Shown here one piece after another: positions 43,321 to 50,306 of a stretch of DNA of 64,000 nucleotides. The stretch is taken from positions 806,001 to 870,000 of the forward strand of contig NZ_PGFH01000001.1 of the NCBI RefSeq assembly GCF_002797685.1, in the 5' to 3' direction. This DNA is from Salinibacterium amurskyense (GTDB lineage Bacteria > Actinomycetota > Actinomycetes > Actinomycetales > Microbacteriaceae). Position numbers and translations under genes: made by a program. Each line of letters begins with the position of its first letter. Within the stretch, counting starts at the first letter, position 1. The notes under the pieces were generated by a model. It worked only from the letters and a program-made list of their open reading frames with translations, did not search any database and was not told where the DNA came from.

Positions 43321-44199
43321 ATGAAACGACTGCCCGTATTACGAAACGTTGATCGCCTCGAGGAGGCGACATCGCTTGATCCCGCCGTCGAAAAGACGCG
43401 GGGCGTCGTCGATGCAGTACTTCGCCCTCGGTGGTTGCGAGATGTACTTCATGGCGTGCCGATGGGGCACCCCGTGCATCCGCTCGGCGTGCATGTTCCG
43501 CTGGGAGCGTGGATCTCAGCCGGAGTGCTCGACGCCGTGCCAGGCACCGAACAAGCATCGCGTGCCCTGGTCGGAGTCGGAGTGCTGGGCGCGAGCGGCA
43601 CGGCAGTCGCTGGCTTTGCCGATTGGTCGCAGCTCGACGAGAAGCAGCAGCGCGTGGGCATCGTGCATGCCGCGGTCAATATCGTGGCCACGGGTTTCTT
43701 CGCGGCATCCTTCGTGCAGCGCTCCCGCGGAAAGCACACGAGCGGCAAAGTGCTGAGCTATGCCGGGCTTGCGATTGCCTCGGGTGGCGGCTACCTCGGT
43801 GGGCACCTGACCTATCGGCAGGCCGCGGGCGTCAGTCACGCGCCGGATGTCGAAGCCACCTTCCCCAGCGGCTGGCAGCAGCTAGCGCCACTCACTGACT
43901 TGCCGGAAGGCGCTCTCGAGAAGCGCGTCGTTGCAGACACTGAAGTAGTGGTCTTCCGGCGGGGTGAGCGGGTCTCGGTGCTCTCCAACACGTGCAGCCA
44001 TCTCGGGGCCGAGCTTCACGATGGCTACGTCGTCGAGGATGATTCCGCTCCGGGCGGCGCGTGTGTGGAATGCCCCTGGCATCAGAGTGCGTTCTCGCTC
44101 GATACAGGCGAGGTCATCCACGGACCGGCGACGAGTCCGCAGCCGCGCTTTGAGAGCCGCGTCGTCGACGGCACGGTCGAGATTCGGTTGCCGCGCTAG
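43321..44199 (+). CDS. DUF2231 and Rieske [2Fe-2S] domain protein
   Basis: This 292-residue protein combines an N-terminal DUF2231 membrane domain of four helices (HPLGVHVPLGAWISAG near residue 60) with a C-terminal Rieske domain (about 195-292). The cluster ligands are visible as CSHLG and CPWHQS, the CxH and CxxH pairs. It is probably a membrane-attached electron-transfer protein, and its partner may be the flavin-type protein encoded upstream. GAGGAA lies before the ATG. The stop overlaps that of the convergent DUF805 gene. Confidence 0.9.
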   Translation: MKRLPVLRNVDRLEEATSLDPAVEKTRGVVDAVLRPRWLRDVLHGVPMGHPVHPLGVHVPLGAWISAGVLDAVPGTEQASRALVGVGVLGASGTAVAGFADWSQLDEKQQRVGIVHAAVNIVATGFFAASFVQRSRGKHTSGKVLSYAGLAIASGGGYLGGHLTYRQAAGVSHAPDVEATFPSGWQQLAPLTDLPEGALEKRVVADTEVVVFRRGERVSVLSNTCSHLGAELHDGYVVEDDSAPGGACVECPWHQSAFSLDTGEVIHGPATSPQPRFESRVVDGTVEIRLPR

Positions 44200-45624: not shown

Positions 45625-47520
45625 ATGGCTACTTCTCGCTCCATCACGCTGGGCTCGGCGGTGCGCCGCTATCCGCTCGTTGCGCTCACGGTTGTGGCTG
45701 GCGTCGTGGGGCTGGCATTGAACTGGACTGCGGCATCCGCCGTTGTGCCCTGGCTGCTCTCGCTCTACGCGCTCGCGGTGGCGGCGCGCGAAGCGGTGTC
45801 GATGGTGGGCAAACTTCTGAAACGCGAGTTCGGGCTCGATGTACTGGCGGTCACCGCCATCGTCGCGACCGTTGTGGTGGGCGAGTACTGGGCAAGCATC
45901 GTGATCGTGCTGATGCTGACCGGTGGAGAAGCTCTCGAAGATTTCGCGGCGGGGCGGGCCAAGCGCGAGCTGAATGCGCTGCTGGGTCGCGTTCCGCAAA
46001 CTGCGCATCAGGTGACGGCGTCCGGCGACATCGCTGACGTTCCCGCCACCGAGGTCGCCGTGGGGGATCGCCTCGTGGTGCGTCCCTCGGAGATCGTGCC
46101 GGTGGATGCCGTGCTGGTCTCTGCCGCGACATCCGTCGATGAATCGTCGCTCACGGGCGAGAGCATGCCCGTGGAAAAAGTGACCGGAGACCTCCTCTTG
46201 AGTGGGTCGGTGAATGGGCCAGAAGCTGTCACGGTGCAGGCGAGCGCCCGCGCATCCGACAGCCAATACCAACGCATCGTGCAGCTCGTCACCGAGGCGG
46301 CGGCGAGCAAGGCGCCCATCGTGCGGTTGGCCGATCGCTACGCCGTGCCCTTCACGTTCGTGTCGATTGGGCTCGCCGCAATCGCCTGGTGGATCTCGGG
46401 TGACCCCGTGCGCTTCGCCGAAGTTCTCGTGGTGGCGACGCCGTGTCCGCTGCTGATTGCGGCCCCGGTGGCGTTCATGGCGGGAATGTCGAGCGCCTCG
46501 ACCTACGGCGTCGTCGTCAAGAACGCGGGCACTCTTGAGGTTCTTGCCCGCGCGAAAACTGTCGTGTTCGACAAGACCGGAACCCTCACGAGCGGGCGAC
46601 CCGTGGTCGTCGAGGTGCGGCCCGAGGGCGCGCTCAGCGCCGACGAACTGCTGGCCTTGGTCGCTGCTGCCGAGCAGTATTCGTCTCACGTGCTCGCGGC
46701 ATCCCTCGTTGAGGCGGCGAAGCAACGCTCGCTCGATCTGCCCGAGGTGGCGGATGCCCGCGAAGTCGCCACGCACGGCGTGCAGGCCCGCGTCGGGGCT
46801 CGGCTTGTGACGGTGGGCAAGCCCGCCTTCGTGGCGCAGCAGGCGCCCGCGCTGACTCGCATCGACCTCGCGAGCGGCGAGGCTGCGGTGTACGTGAGCG
46901 TCGATGATCAGTACGCCGGCGCTATTGTGCTGCGCGATGCGGTGCGGCCCGAAGCAGCGCGCACGCTCACGGAGTTGGGCGAGCTGGGCATCCAGAACAC
47001 TCTGATGCTGACAGGCGATGTGGAAGAGACGGCGCGCAAGGTGGCCGACGAACTCCACATCAGCGAAGTGCACGCCGAGTGTCTTCCCGAAGACAAGGTG
47101 CGGCTCGTGCACGCGACCTCGCCGCATCCGGTGGTGATGGTCGGCGATGGCGTGAACGATGCGCCAGTGCTGGGAGCCGCCGACGTCGGCATCGCGATGG
47201 GCGCGAAAGGCTCAACGGCGGCGAGCGAATCGGCCGATGTCGTGATCCTGGTCGACGATCTGCACCGGGTCGTTTCCGCGGTGCAGGTCAGTCAGCGCAC
47301 CGTGCAGATCGCGTTGCAGAGCATCTGGATCGGAATCGCCATCAGCATCGGGCTCATGCTCTTTGCCATGACGGGCGCGCTGCCCGCCGTGGTGGGCGCT
47401 GCGCTGCAAGAAGTGGTTGACCTCGTGACGATTCTCAACGCGTTGCGGGCGTTGAGCCTTAAGCGTCGTTTGCGCGGCTCACCACGTTCGACCGCGGAGC
47501 GCGTGCAGGCGCCGAGCTAG
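45625..47520 (+). CDS. P1B-type heavy-metal ATPase with TPCP motif
   Basis: This 631-residue metal-translocating P-type ATPase has the actuator motif LTGES near 177, the transmembrane metal motif TPCP at 272-275, the phosphorylation site DKTGT from Asp316, and GDGVNDAP from about 507. It has no N-terminal HMA or His-rich metal-binding domain and fewer N-terminal helices than CopA. The TPC motif differs from the CPC of Cu/Zn/Cd pumps and resembles the SPC/TPC subgroups linked to Co, Ni or Fe; the substrate is therefore uncertain. It converges with the redox cluster by four bases. Confidence 0.9.
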   Translation: MATSRSITLGSAVRRYPLVALTVVAGVVGLALNWTAASAVVPWLLSLYALAVAAREAVSMVGKLLKREFGLDVLAVTAIVATVVVGEYWASIVIVLMLTGGEALEDFAAGRAKRELNALLGRVPQTAHQVTASGDIADVPATEVAVGDRLVVRPSEIVPVDAVLVSAATSVDESSLTGESMPVEKVTGDLLLSGSVNGPEAVTVQASARASDSQYQRIVQLVTEAAASKAPIVRLADRYAVPFTFVSIGLAAIAWWISGDPVRFAEVLVVATPCPLLIAAPVAFMAGMSSASTYGVVVKNAGTLEVLARAKTVVFDKTGTLTSGRPVVVEVRPEGALSADELLALVAAAEQYSSHVLAASLVEAAKQRSLDLPEVADAREVATHGVQARVGARLVTVGKPAFVAQQAPALTRIDLASGEAAVYVSVDDQYAGAIVLRDAVRPEAARTLTELGELGIQNTLMLTGDVEETARKVADELHISEVHAECLPEDKVRLVHATSPHPVVMVGDGVNDAPVLGAADVGIAMGAKGSTAASESADVVILVDDLHRVVSAVQVSQRTVQIALQSIWIGIAISIGLMLFAMTGALPAVVGAALQEVVDLVTILNALRALSLKRRLRGSPRSTAERVQAPS

Positions 47521-49025
47521 TAGCCCGAGAAATAGTCGGTGTGGATGCGGCGGGTGCCGTTTGCTCGCAACGTCGCCTTCAGGTCGTTGACGAGCGCGGG
47601 CGGGCCCGAAAGGTAAGCCCGGCGGTCGGCTAGATCGGGCACGAGTGCGGAGAGGGCGTCGCCGTTCAGGCGCCCCTCGCTGCCGAGAACCCAGCCTGCC
47701 GGAAGGGCGTCGGCGGGCTGCGGCCCGAACACGATGACGCGTACACCGGCCGCGGTGAGAACATCGGTGAAGGGCAGCGGTGCCGAGCTCGAGGTGGCGT
47801 AGATGACCACGATGTCACGCTCTTCGTCGTGACGGTGAGCGTGCGCGATCTGGCTCGCAAAGGGCGTCATGCCGATGCCGCCGGCGACGAGCAAGAGCGG
47901 CTCGCTCGTTTTGCGGGGGAGTACAAAGTCGCCCCAGATTCCCGTCGCGTTCACTTGAGAACCGCGCGGCAACGCCAAGAGGGCAGCCTTGAAGCTGCTG
48001 GAGTTTTCGGCGACCGTGAACGTCACCGTCAGGGTGGCCCCGGCATCCGGTGCTGACGAGATCGTGAAGTAGCGCCGCACTCCGCGGAAGTCCGGGGAGG
48101 AATGTGGGAGTGACAGCTCGATGTACTGGCCCGCCCGAAAGAGGATCGGGCGGTGCGGGGCAAAAGTGAGTTGCCACGTTCCGGGAGCGATCTCGTCGGT
48201 CTCGGTGAGCGACATCCGAATGGTGCGGCGCTGGGTGAACGCGAAGGCGACGAGGTTACCGATGAGCAGCGCCAGCAACGGGTCGCTGTAGAAGTTGCCG
48301 ATCGAGAACGGGATGGCGAAGAGCAGGGCGACGAGCACCGCGAGGCTGAGGCGTTGCCAGCGTCGCGGCGGCAAAGTGAGTGGTTCGCTCAGCATGAAGC
48401 CGGCGAAGAAGATCATCTGAGATGACAAGAACGTGAAGCTGAGTGCCTCGGTCAGGTCGCCACCGTTAGCGAGCGTAAGCGCAATGCGGATGCCGGCCGC
48501 GAATACCACGAACGTGAGCCCGAGATCGAGGCGTTGCGTGCGGTACAGGATGAGGAATGCAGCGATCAGAACGAGCGGCTGCAGCCACGGGGTTCCGACC
48601 CACCACGTCGGAAAACCGAGTGGCACAAAGATGAACACGTACGCGCCCAGTGCCGCCGGGTTGAAGATATGGCGCCCACGGAATGCAAGGAGAAACTTGG
48701 ATGCCGCGGCGATAGTCGAGGCCAGCGCAATGGCGAGGAGCCCAGTCAGTTGCAGGCTCGGCGCCATGATGAAGAACACGAGCAGACCCGTGATGAGCGA
48801 CGATTCGAGGTGTGCTCGCTGACCAACGATGCGGGCTCCGAGCCAACTGGCGCCGTAGCTAAACGCGACCGCGACCGGCAAACTGGCAAGCAGCGCGAAG
48901 GGGTCAGGCGAGACGAGGCCGACGAACGCGAGCGCTATCGACACGACAGCGAGTGCGGCGAGACTGCCGAGCACCAGCTTGTACATGGCGACGGCGCCGA
49001 GGGTTCGATCGAGCCAACGTTTCAT
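47517..49025 (-). CDS. NqrB/RnfD-like membrane domain fused to an FAD/NAD(P) reductase domain
   Basis: The 502-residue protein has about nine membrane helices (1-265) of the NqrB/RnfD type, with the RHIFNPAA segment at 118-125. A ferredoxin-NADP reductase-like module follows (about 270-502), with FAD motif RRYFT at 317-321 and nucleotide motif GGIGMTP at 382-388. No SGAT flavinylation motif is seen in the membrane part. It should move electrons between cytosolic NAD(P)H and the extracytoplasmic side. ATG 49025 overlaps the apbE stop by four bases. The direction of electron flow and the cofactors are inferred. Confidence 0.88.
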   Translation of the reverse strand: MKRWLDRTLGAVAMYKLVLGSLAALAVVSIALAFVGLVSPDPFALLASLPVAVAFSYGASWLGARIVGQRAHLESSLITGLLVFFIMAPSLQLTGLLAIALASTIAAASKFLLAFRGRHIFNPAALGAYVFIFVPLGFPTWWVGTPWLQPLVLIAAFLILYRTQRLDLGLTFVVFAAGIRIALTLANGGDLTEALSFTFLSSQMIFFAGFMLSEPLTLPPRRWQRLSLAVLVALLFAIPFSIGNFYSDPLLALLIGNLVAFAFTQRRTIRMSLTETDEIAPGTWQLTFAPHRPILFRAGQYIELSLPHSSPDFRGVRRYFTISSAPDAGATLTVTFTVAENSSSFKAALLALPRGSQVNATGIWGDFVLPRKTSEPLLLVAGGIGMTPFASQIAHAHRHDEERDIVVIYATSSSAPLPFTDVLTAAGVRVIVFGPQPADALPAGWVLGSEGRLNGDALSALVPDLADRRAYLSGPPALVNDLKATLRANGTRRIHTDYFSGY

Positions 49026-49882
49026 AGAAATACTTCTCCGGTGAGGTGTGCCGAGTGCTCCACTCGGCCGGTGGCGTGCATCCGCACCCACTGAAAGTCG
49101 AACTCGGCTTCGAGCTCCGCAGGTTCGGCAAAGAACAGTGCGGTGGCGAGGCCGTCGGCCTCGAGGGCAGTGCGGGCGATGGCCCACGTCGCGATGATGC
49201 GGTCGGTGGGCAGTCCGGTGCGAGCATCCAGAATATGGTGCAGCCCGGCCCACGCTCGGCGGTTGGGGGCAGAGGCGCAGATCGCTTCGTTGCTCACCTT
49301 CACCACGCCGATCGCTTTGCTGGTGTCGAGCGGATGCTCCAGCGCGACCCGTAGTTCGCCAGCGCCGCGGTGCAGAATGTCTCCGCTCGCATCCACCGTG
49401 CTGGTTGTGACTCCGTGCTCGGCGAGCACCTCCGCCACGAGATCGACGAGGTAGCCCTTGCCCGCGGCGCCCACGTCGAGCACTGCCGGGGTGAGTGCGG
49501 TGAGCGCACTGCCGTTCCAGCTGATGGCTTCGCTCCAGTCGGGAACGCGCGTGCGGCTGGCAGCGGGCTGCAGCGAGTAGGTGCGGTCGTAGCCGAGCTC
49601 TTCCAGAGCGCGGCCCACGAGCGGACTGAGCGCTCCGTTCGTCGCGTCGTAAAGTCGGCGGTAAAGGTCAAACAGCGGGGGAGCATCCGCCGGAAAAGTG
49701 TAGGTGCCGGGCGTGCGTGCGATCGCGGTGACGAGGGAGTCGTCGCGAAACCGCGAGTAGGTACGGTCGAACAGCTCGATTCGGTGCGCTACGGCAGCCT
49801 CTACGTCAGAGCCGAGGGGCTCCGCAGTGTCGATCTGCCAGGGCGCACCGATGGCATCAAACTGTTTACTCGGCGAGGGCAT
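49022..49882 (-). CDS. apbE: FAD:protein FMN transferase
   Basis: This 286-residue ApbE-family enzyme covalently attaches FMN to Ser/Thr residues of target proteins. Conserved are FDRTYSRFRDDS, the nucleotide-binding LDVGAAGKGYLVD, VDASGDI and DARTG-like HHILDARTG. No signal peptide or lipobox is visible, unlike classic periplasmic ApbE, so it may act on the cytosolic side or be exported otherwise. ATG 49882 overlaps the FMN-binding lipoprotein gene by 17 bases. The obvious substrate is that lipoprotein. Confidence 0.93.
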   Translation of the reverse strand: MPSPSKQFDAIGAPWQIDTAEPLGSDVEAAVAHRIELFDRTYSRFRDDSLVTAIARTPGTYTFPADAPPLFDLYRRLYDATNGALSPLVGRALEELGYDRTYSLQPAASRTRVPDWSEAISWNGSALTALTPAVLDVGAAGKGYLVDLVAEVLAEHGVTTSTVDASGDILHRGAGELRVALEHPLDTSKAIGVVKVSNEAICASAPNRRAWAGLHHILDARTGLPTDRIIATWAIARTALEADGLATALFFAEPAELEAEFDFQWVRMHATGRVEHSAHLTGEVFL

Positions 49883-50306
49883 CAGCCTTGATCGCGTCGA
49901 CAGCCTTGTTGAAGCCACCGCTCGTGAGCGAGGAACCGGCTACCTTGTCGACGGAAAGCTCGTCGATGTTCTTACCCACGACTTCGTCGGCAATTCCGTC
50001 GATGAACTCGCCCTGAAACTGGATCGAGTTGGGGTTCTCGCCGTAGCCGACGACCGTGACGTCGGTGACGGTGTTGCTCTCGAGGGTGAGCGTGACATCC
50101 ACCTTCTCGGCGCCGTTGGGAGAGGTGTAGTCGCCCGACTCCGTGTAGGTGCCATCGGTGTAGTCGGCGCCGGCGTCGGGGGCATTCACATCGGCGGTTC
50201 CGCTGTCCGTGCCGGTGCTGGGCGACGAGCAGGCGGAAAGTGCACCCACGAGGGTGACACCGGCAAAGAGGGCTACGGCAGTCTTGTTGTCGGTGAGGTT
50301 ACGCAT
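49866..50306 (-). CDS. FMN-binding domain lipoprotein
   Basis: The 146-residue protein has a lipoprotein signal (LVGALSAC, lipid-attachment Cys26), a Ser/Thr/Asp-rich linker and an FMN_bind domain (about 55-146; DGTYTESGDY, IQFQGEFIDGI). The flavin attachment site aligned with SGAT reads AGSS (123-126), so Ser126 would replace the usual Thr. It is predicted to be flavinylated by the adjacent ApbE and anchored outside the membrane as an electron carrier. A GGGAG ribosome site precedes ATG 50306. Confidence 0.88.
   Translation of the reverse strand: MRNLTDNKTAVALFAGVTLVGALSACSSPSTGTDSGTADVNAPDAGADYTDGTYTESGDYTSPNGAEKVDVTLTLESNTVTDVTVVGYGENPNSIQFQGEFIDGIADEVVGKNIDELSVDKVAGSSLTSGGFNKAVDAIKADALAE

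Follow-up and report, generated by a model that had tools for sequence, protein, structure and literature searches.

Flavinylation systems of the NQR/RNF-like type have been described from Actinobacteria and the candidate phyla radiation (PMC8238504, PMC11334425). As these two accounts present them, an NqrB/RnfD-like membrane domain lacking the covalent-flavin Thr motif is fused to an NAD-binding reductase and accompanied by a partner with a flavin mononucleotide (FMN)-binding FMN_bind domain. The account in PMC8238504 gives 127 clusters in 127 genomes, with VIT1 in six, and Huang et al. (2024) modelled the complex of Ktedonobacter racemifer, in which the membrane domain is without a flavinylation site (PMC11334425). 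According to a current account, a flavoprotein exported by Sec must be given its cofactor on the outer side of the membrane (PMC9973259). Published descriptions place flavin transferases outside the cell, one of them for a Streptomyces substrate (PMC10339131). Here we analyze a three-gene cluster of Salinibacterium amurskyense, referred to in the following as the triad, which lies in a 64,000-nt stretch of contig NZ_PGFH01000001.1 (positions 806,001 to 870,000; the window) and encodes an FMN_bind lipoprotein, the flavin transferase ApbE and a fusion of an NqrB/RnfD-like membrane domain with an FNR reductase. The triad belongs to the NQR/RNF-like systems already in print (PMC8238504, PMC11334425) and is not a new kind, and since the electron-transfer model has already been published, that idea is not new either. 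What matters more than the cluster is a mismatch of localization: the lipoprotein carries an export signal, and its ApbE carries none that we could recognize. Where flavinylation takes place is what most deserves experimental attention.

The three genes are tightly packed (Table 1). The ATG of apbE lies inside the lipoprotein gene, giving a 17-base overlap, and apbE and the fusion gene overlap in the sequence ATGA. A sequence-only reading of the window had proposed three overlapping or adjacent minus-strand genes with these domains, and both the layout and the domain assignments agree with the sequence and structure tests described below. ApbE matches solved ApbEs in sequence (e.g., 7esa, E 3e-11). 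A PHROGs search gave no result, and protein P0003 had no convincing match among PDB sequences.

Table 1. Features of the triad. Positions refer to the whole 64,000-nt window.
Feature	Position	Strand	Description
FMN_bind lipoprotein	49866-50306	-	146 aa; PF04205, E 2.8e-6, 28.3 bits (cut-off 22)
Sec/lipoprotein signal	50229-50306	-	residues 1-26; lipobox LSAC; no twin arginine; assigned from sequence
AGSSLT, probable flavinylation motif	49923-49940	-	residues 123-128; acceptor Thr128, 18 residues from the C-terminus
ApbE flavin transferase	49022-49882	-	286 aa; PF02424, E 2.5e-37
NqrB/RnfD-FNR fusion	47517-49025	-	502 aa
Fusion, membrane domain	48231-49025	-	residues 1-265; predicted RnfD/NqrB fold; about ten membrane segments; no SGAT motif
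Fusion, flavin adenine dinucleotide (FAD)/NAD(P)-binding FNR domain	47517-48224	-	residues 268-502; conserved GQ, RR, GGIG.TP and C-terminal D.F.GY

Because the Foldseek matches listed for the full-length model of the fusion were mostly reductases, the membrane half was modelled alone with AlphaFold2 (residues 1-265; predicted local distance difference test score, pLDDT, 86.4; predicted TM-score, pTM, 0.84). All 13 PDB matches of this model at E ≤ 0.001 were RnfD or NqrB (query TM-score, TMq, 0.54-0.70), with urea transporters next below them in the ranking. The predicted structure settles the membrane half as an RnfD/NqrB fold. The sequence-only reading had staked itself on an alignment of this domain with NqrB/RnfD, which these matches bear out; its estimate of about nine helices was slightly low, judging from the segments counted by eye among the model helices. 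The basic N-terminus and the basic residues after the last segment should place both ends of the fusion in the cytosol. The reductase half is an FNR domain, with clear and strong matches in NCBIfam, among PDB sequences and by Foldseek. Residues of GRHxxNPAA, WW, FMLSEPLTLPP, GQ, RR, GGIGxTP and a terminal DxFxGY are retained in 95% or more of 81 aligned fusions, and SGAT occurs in a single membrane domain (locus L077).

These features match the published definition of the NQR/RNF-like system: a C-terminal cytosolic NAD-binding domain (PF00175), here recovered via NCBIfam, PDB and Foldseek; a cluster with FMN_bind or ApbE and at least one signal or lipidation site; and a membrane domain without a conserved flavinylation Thr motif. 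A difference is the missing export signal of ApbE, which the passages of PMC8238504 and PMC11334425 on this system do not discuss. With Na+-NQR and RNF, the triad shares the fold of the membrane domain and an FMN_bind partner like NqrC/RnfG, but it consists of one chain and one lipoprotein, its cluster encodes neither Fe-S nor other subunits, its reductase is fused to the membrane domain, and it would follow a one-way path. A full Na+-NQR/RNF set with a flavinylated NqrB/RnfD was not found in the three-gene cluster, the remaining subunits not being searched for singly. In the host genome (2.78 Mb, 99.99% complete), FMN_bind, ApbE and PF03116 each give a single match, in every case within the triad, in keeping with the earlier claim that the unit does without the other Nqr/Rnf subunits. 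The genome contains no match to DUF2271 or DUF3570, further families of ApbE substrates in PMC8238504.

The MsrQ-like system of Actinobacteria, as described in PMC8238504, likewise combines an FMN_bind protein, ApbE and an NAD(P)H-linked membrane protein, but the latter is of the haem type instead of the NqrB/RnfD fold. Such clusters were also found here. Among 20 half-type ApbE loci, 13 have an upstream membrane-anchored open reading frame (ORF) bearing SGA[ST]xT, and all six of those tested scored above the FMN_bind cut-off. The next membrane gene matched both PF01794 and PF00175 in six of six tested, identifying an MsrQ-like cluster; at these six loci, the FMN protein matched PF04205 in all five cases tested and ApbE had no clear signal.

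The conservation of the triad was examined in 80 named loci, the best 80 of 528 relatives, taken from genome contigs. They come mostly from Microbacteriaceae, with some Micrococcaceae, Aeromicrobium, a Cellulomonas, two Saccharibacteria metagenome-assembled genomes (MAGs) and one MAG labelled Acidobacteria. FMN_bind, ApbE and fusion follow one another in this order on one strand in 77 of the 80, which answers the neighborhood survey proposed in the sequence-only reading and shows the triad to be more than chance. Two of the three exceptions (L047 and L057) are cut contigs; in the third (L102), neither partner is present within 2.4 kb. Of the 77, 76 have the FMN gene close to apbE, and L059 has it about 2.4 kb away. 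Clustering of the flanking ORFs gave no further partner as general as the triad; the next large cluster (65 loci) was, by eye, a mix of shadow frames and unrelated neighbors. In 20 more distant loci, ApbE adjoins the fusion without exception, the FMN protein is present in 19 (not L132), and the fusion is uninterrupted in 19. The distant class member L127 has a fusion interrupted by TAA, while its ApbE and FMN protein look intact. One full triad (L178) is recorded on a 19-kb sequence named "Pseudomonas sp. DR48 plasmid pDR48-1" (NZ_CP081947.1), where the neighbors look actinobacterial by eye; this record probably stems from contamination and is not a genuine plasmid of Pseudomonas.

In the family sample, 196 of 299 genomes had some match to the fusion, many via the reductase half alone, and 118 of 299 (the host genome included) matched at E ≤ 4.5e-62, with partial or split matches in four. 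In the class sample, 28 of 394 genomes matched at E ≤ 1e-40. The phylum of the Saccharibacteria MAG gave matches at E ≤ 1e-30 in 72 of 286 genomes, with 45 near full-length places in 44 genomes. These counts (118/299 and 44/286) stand beside the 127 genomes of PMC8238504, bearing in mind that genome sets and criteria differ. We read 11 loci of the Saccharibacteria group and found ApbE in nine and FMN frames in eight, some of them weak; the FMN frame of L190 falls under the Pfam FMN_bind threshold yet matches the triad profile at 3.5e-45. In some genomes of this phylum the membrane half forms a frame of its own (G964:C2:187712-189228, G719:C70:17248-18030), followed directly in G964 by a separate reductase frame; these are possible unfused ancestors or splits.

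The lipoprotein consistently carries an export signal. A lipobox is present in 76 of the 77 FMN proteins of the relatives; the remaining one (L067, from Saccharibacteria) carries a membrane anchor in its place. The acceptor motif [ASG]GSSLT occurs in 76 of 77, with its Thr 16-18 residues from the C-terminus. Export signals were called by a hydrophobicity rule together with inspection by eye, allowing any ATG, GTG, TTG or CTG start and excluding the two cut contigs. The screen was positive for 77 of 77 FMN proteins, 79 of 80 fusions and one of 77 ApbEs (L036), where the flagged stretch lies inside the ApbE fold. The ApbE of the window starts seven residues before the conserved FDAIG core, without a recognizable signal peptide or membrane segment, and so by this rule lacks the export signal found in ApbEs known to serve exported substrates. 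By inspection, none of the ApbEs in the 20 distant loci had a signal, and neither did nine from the Saccharibacteria group, which included a short ApbE type unlike that of the window. The sequence-only reading had cast ApbE as the probable flavinylating enzyme; its identity as ApbE stands, but where it acts had not been asked, and there is no recognizable signal despite an exported substrate.

The same was seen outside the triads. We inspected 60 non-triad ApbEs of the class (40 plus 20), hand-picked from the listed matches rather than drawn at random, and none had a clear signal; two were ambiguous (L165 and L248). The screen flagged three of the 40 and four of the 20, of which six read as lying inside the ApbE frame and the seventh is L248. 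The L165 frame opens with CTG and a hydrophobic stretch that went unflagged because of an Asn. As a control, we used the 30 best-scoring ApbEs from other classes of the same phylum: 27 had a signal or membrane anchor (22 by the screen and five by inspection), and three had none (L209, L218 and L221). The Tat-like signal of Rhizobium NosX was present as well. Within these hand-picked samples, the signals in 27 of 30 controls make it unlikely that their lack in the class is an artefact of the method or a property of the phylum. The ApbE family also has cytosolic members.

The filter used by Meheust required a signal in at least one target gene, so ApbEs without one could pass unremarked (PMC8238504). 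Our searches of open-licence literature, figures and supplements aside, turned up no statement of the localization mismatch or of flavinylation before export for Actinobacteria.

We consider it likely that the triad is an NQR/RNF-like unit carrying electrons from NAD(P)H to a surface FMN, with ApbE in the cytosol and the FMN attached before Sec export. The cytosolic FNR domain would take hydride from NAD(P)H onto FAD, and electrons would cross the NqrB/RnfD-like membrane domain, probably via a non-covalent flavin, to FMN held covalently on Thr128 of the surface lipoprotein. This one-way model agrees with the sequence and structure tests and is also the published one. As there would be no return path and the cluster has no other Nqr/Rnf subunit, the unit should not pump ions as NQR and RNF do. 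The lipoprotein would pass its electrons to an external acceptor; if one has to guess, ferric iron is the best candidate. In Bifidobacterium breve, a transposon insertion in apbE makes the strain sensitive to the chelation of ferrous iron, and the iron-uptake cluster of that species includes an FMN_bind gene (PMC5449479). This points to iron, but neither VIT1 nor a DtxR box was found by the triad, as described below.

With ApbE in the cytosol, FMN is most likely attached to the precursor before Sec export. ApbE would flavinylate the lipoprotein precursor near its C-terminus, and Sec would then export the FMN-bearing protein. The FAD donor would be the cytosolic pool, so that an FAD exporter would not be needed, and since the two genes overlap or lie close together, ApbE would be synthesized next to the emerging lipoprotein. 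Tags as short as seven residues are reported to be flavinylated by co-expressed ApbE, best at a terminus (PMC12052999), so the reaction may not depend on a folded FMN_bind domain. The Sec system of E. coli passes biotinyl and phosphopantetheinyl groups added in the cytosol (PMC3418276). For the class Actinomycetes and the fusion-bearing Saccharibacteria-type bacteria as a whole, we lean, with some reserve, towards the view that ApbEs without a signal flavinylate FMN_bind proteins in the cytosol, which would then pass through Sec unfolded with their FMN.

Several points weigh against flavinylation before export by such a unit. Where ApbEs have been studied together with exported proteins, the enzymes too are described as exported, and expression of an ApbE in the cytosol did not complement an apbE mutant (PMC12052999). 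Our signal calls come from a hydrophobicity rule and inspection, and a looser measure flagged one of 79 triad ApbEs (L094), which has a mildly hydrophobic start. Four of the 77 FMN signals (L044, L092, L099 and L101; not that of the window) contain a Tat-like [RK]Rx-hydrophobic motif, Tat being twin-arginine translocation. In Salinibacterium soli (L046) the acceptor motif reads AGSSLA, with Ala at the acceptor position. As for the fusion, its Pfam scores fall below the cut-offs both for PF03116 (E 1e-5, 25.5 bits against 27.7; 31 bits in the genome search, where the frame included neighbors) and for PF00175 (E 9.6e-4, 20.2 bits against 22). A profile of the membrane domain matched RnfD (8ahx_D) only weakly, at E 0.46, in an alignment that is collinear in both halves, with about 70 extra residues between them in RnfD. 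The papers searched yielded no experiment on this cluster.

The Ala of L046 is a natural test of whether the neighboring Ser can serve as acceptor. For the four relatives with a Tat-like motif, export of a folded holoprotein by Tat is possible, judging from the motif. As a general route for the lipoprotein, Tat was rejected: the n-region of the signal has RR in nine of the 77 relatives, the [RK]Rx-hydrophobic motif occurs in only those four, and the window has neither.

The alternative that survives best, though we regard it as unlikely, is that ApbE, exported without a recognizable signal or carried out with a partner protein, attaches the flavin to the lipoprotein on the outer side, the arrangement described for Listeria or Salmonella. 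Well-studied exported substrates are indeed described as flavinylated outside by ApbEs that bear signals (PMC12052999, PMC9973259, PMC5928378), and PMC10339131 assumes the same place for its Streptomyces case. The FmnB/PplA/EetB system of Listeria also shares with the triad a flavinylated surface protein that moves electrons from the cytosol to outside acceptors, but there FmnB is extracytosolic, and export of FAD by EetB/FmnA is needed (PMC9973259). No candidate start gave a signal-like N-terminus in the ApbEs of the 77 triads or, by inspection, of the 20 distant loci. With no twin arginine in the lipoprotein of the window and RR so rare among the relatives, a folded ApbE could hardly ride along with the lipoprotein by Tat.

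It is rather improbable that the cytosolic ApbE serves another cytosolic protein, the lipoprotein binding FMN loosely or not at all. Such a pairing exists in Klebsiella, where an ApbE that likewise lacks a signal peptide acts on a soluble fumarate reductase (PMC12052999), but there the substrate stays in the cytosol. In the triads, the acceptor Thr is kept in all but one of the 77 lipoproteins, and the two genes overlap in the window. The host genome has no second FMN_bind protein and no DUF2271 or DUF3570 protein; other kinds of substrate, fumarate reductase-like proteins among them, were not searched for.

We think ion coupling of the unit, in concert with the neighboring Na+/H+ (Mrp) antiporter, very unlikely, a question that the sequence-only reading had raised from the position of the two. 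The antiporter operon is real, and it adjoins the triad in the window and in three Salinibacterium relatives (L034-L036), but those three were the only ones among the 80 loci. Mrp genes were not found by the triad in the other 77, close relatives L037 and L038 included, within flanks of at most 9 kb (at least 8.5 kb on both sides in 66 of the 80, the other 14 being shorter). The cluster also has no other NQR/RNF subunits. The coupling is thus unsupported, and the adjacency looks local to some Salinibacterium.

A haem ferric reductase of the NOX or MsrQ kind is hardly a credible reading of the fusion: the FNR half resembles the NOX and flavohaemoglobin reductases, and MsrQ-like systems are the commoner type in the account of PMC8238504, but the fusion has no match to PF01794 (haem ferric-reductase) up to E 1, the MsrQ-type proteins beside other ApbEs do match it, and the predicted fold, with 13 of 13 matches to RnfD/NqrB, already contradicts this reading.

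A DtxR-type box upstream of the FMN gene had at least six mismatches in all 77 loci; two of 77 shuffles reached five, so the real loci were no better, and iron regulation by DtxR was rejected. No VIT1 iron transporter was found beside the triad in the 80 loci, with one Deinococcus VIT1 as the query, and a promoter scan yielded no site. At positions 43321-44199 (plus strand), 3.3 kb beyond the end of the triad and past a P-type ATPase and an ion channel, the window encodes a protein in which a DUF2231 membrane domain is combined with a Rieske [2Fe-2S] domain at the C-terminus.

The start of apbE is unusual in several relatives. In 11 of the 77 genes (L037-L039, L042, L048, L072, L089, L091, L104-L106), no ATG, GTG or TTG lies between the upstream stop and the conserved core; eight have only CTG, one has only ATT/ATC/ATA, and two (L038 and L091) have none of these. 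In L037, L038 and L091, the apbE ATG of the window is replaced by ACG at the overlap. Non-AUG, translationally coupled starts are possible on this evidence. These odd starts, together with the frequent opening of the ApbE frame within the lipoprotein gene, led us to consider a programmed frameshift joining lipoprotein and ApbE; it was rejected as a general explanation, given that in several loci (L083, L099 and L111) apbE follows a stop in the same frame and has its own start.

ApbEs 48-53% identical to that of the window occur on plasmids of Agrobacterium (L176 and L177) and Ensifer (L189). At the two Agrobacterium loci, an ApbE without a signal lies beside a small protein that matches the triad FMN profile and has a Sec-type signal, with no fusion in the stretch read. 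This Alphaproteobacterial plasmid case is one of a transferred signal-less ApbE with an exported substrate.

If it is true that a large bacterial class attaches FMN before export, the current picture of flavinylation needs a second branch. Attachment in the cytosol would add a third route by which exported proteins acquire a cofactor, the other two being loading outside the cell and Tat export of a folded holoprotein, and an FAD exporter would no longer be needed. For the mismatch between an exported substrate and an ApbE without a signal, laboratory actinobacteria offer a direct test, and secreted covalent flavoproteins could be made with the triad as a ready cassette.

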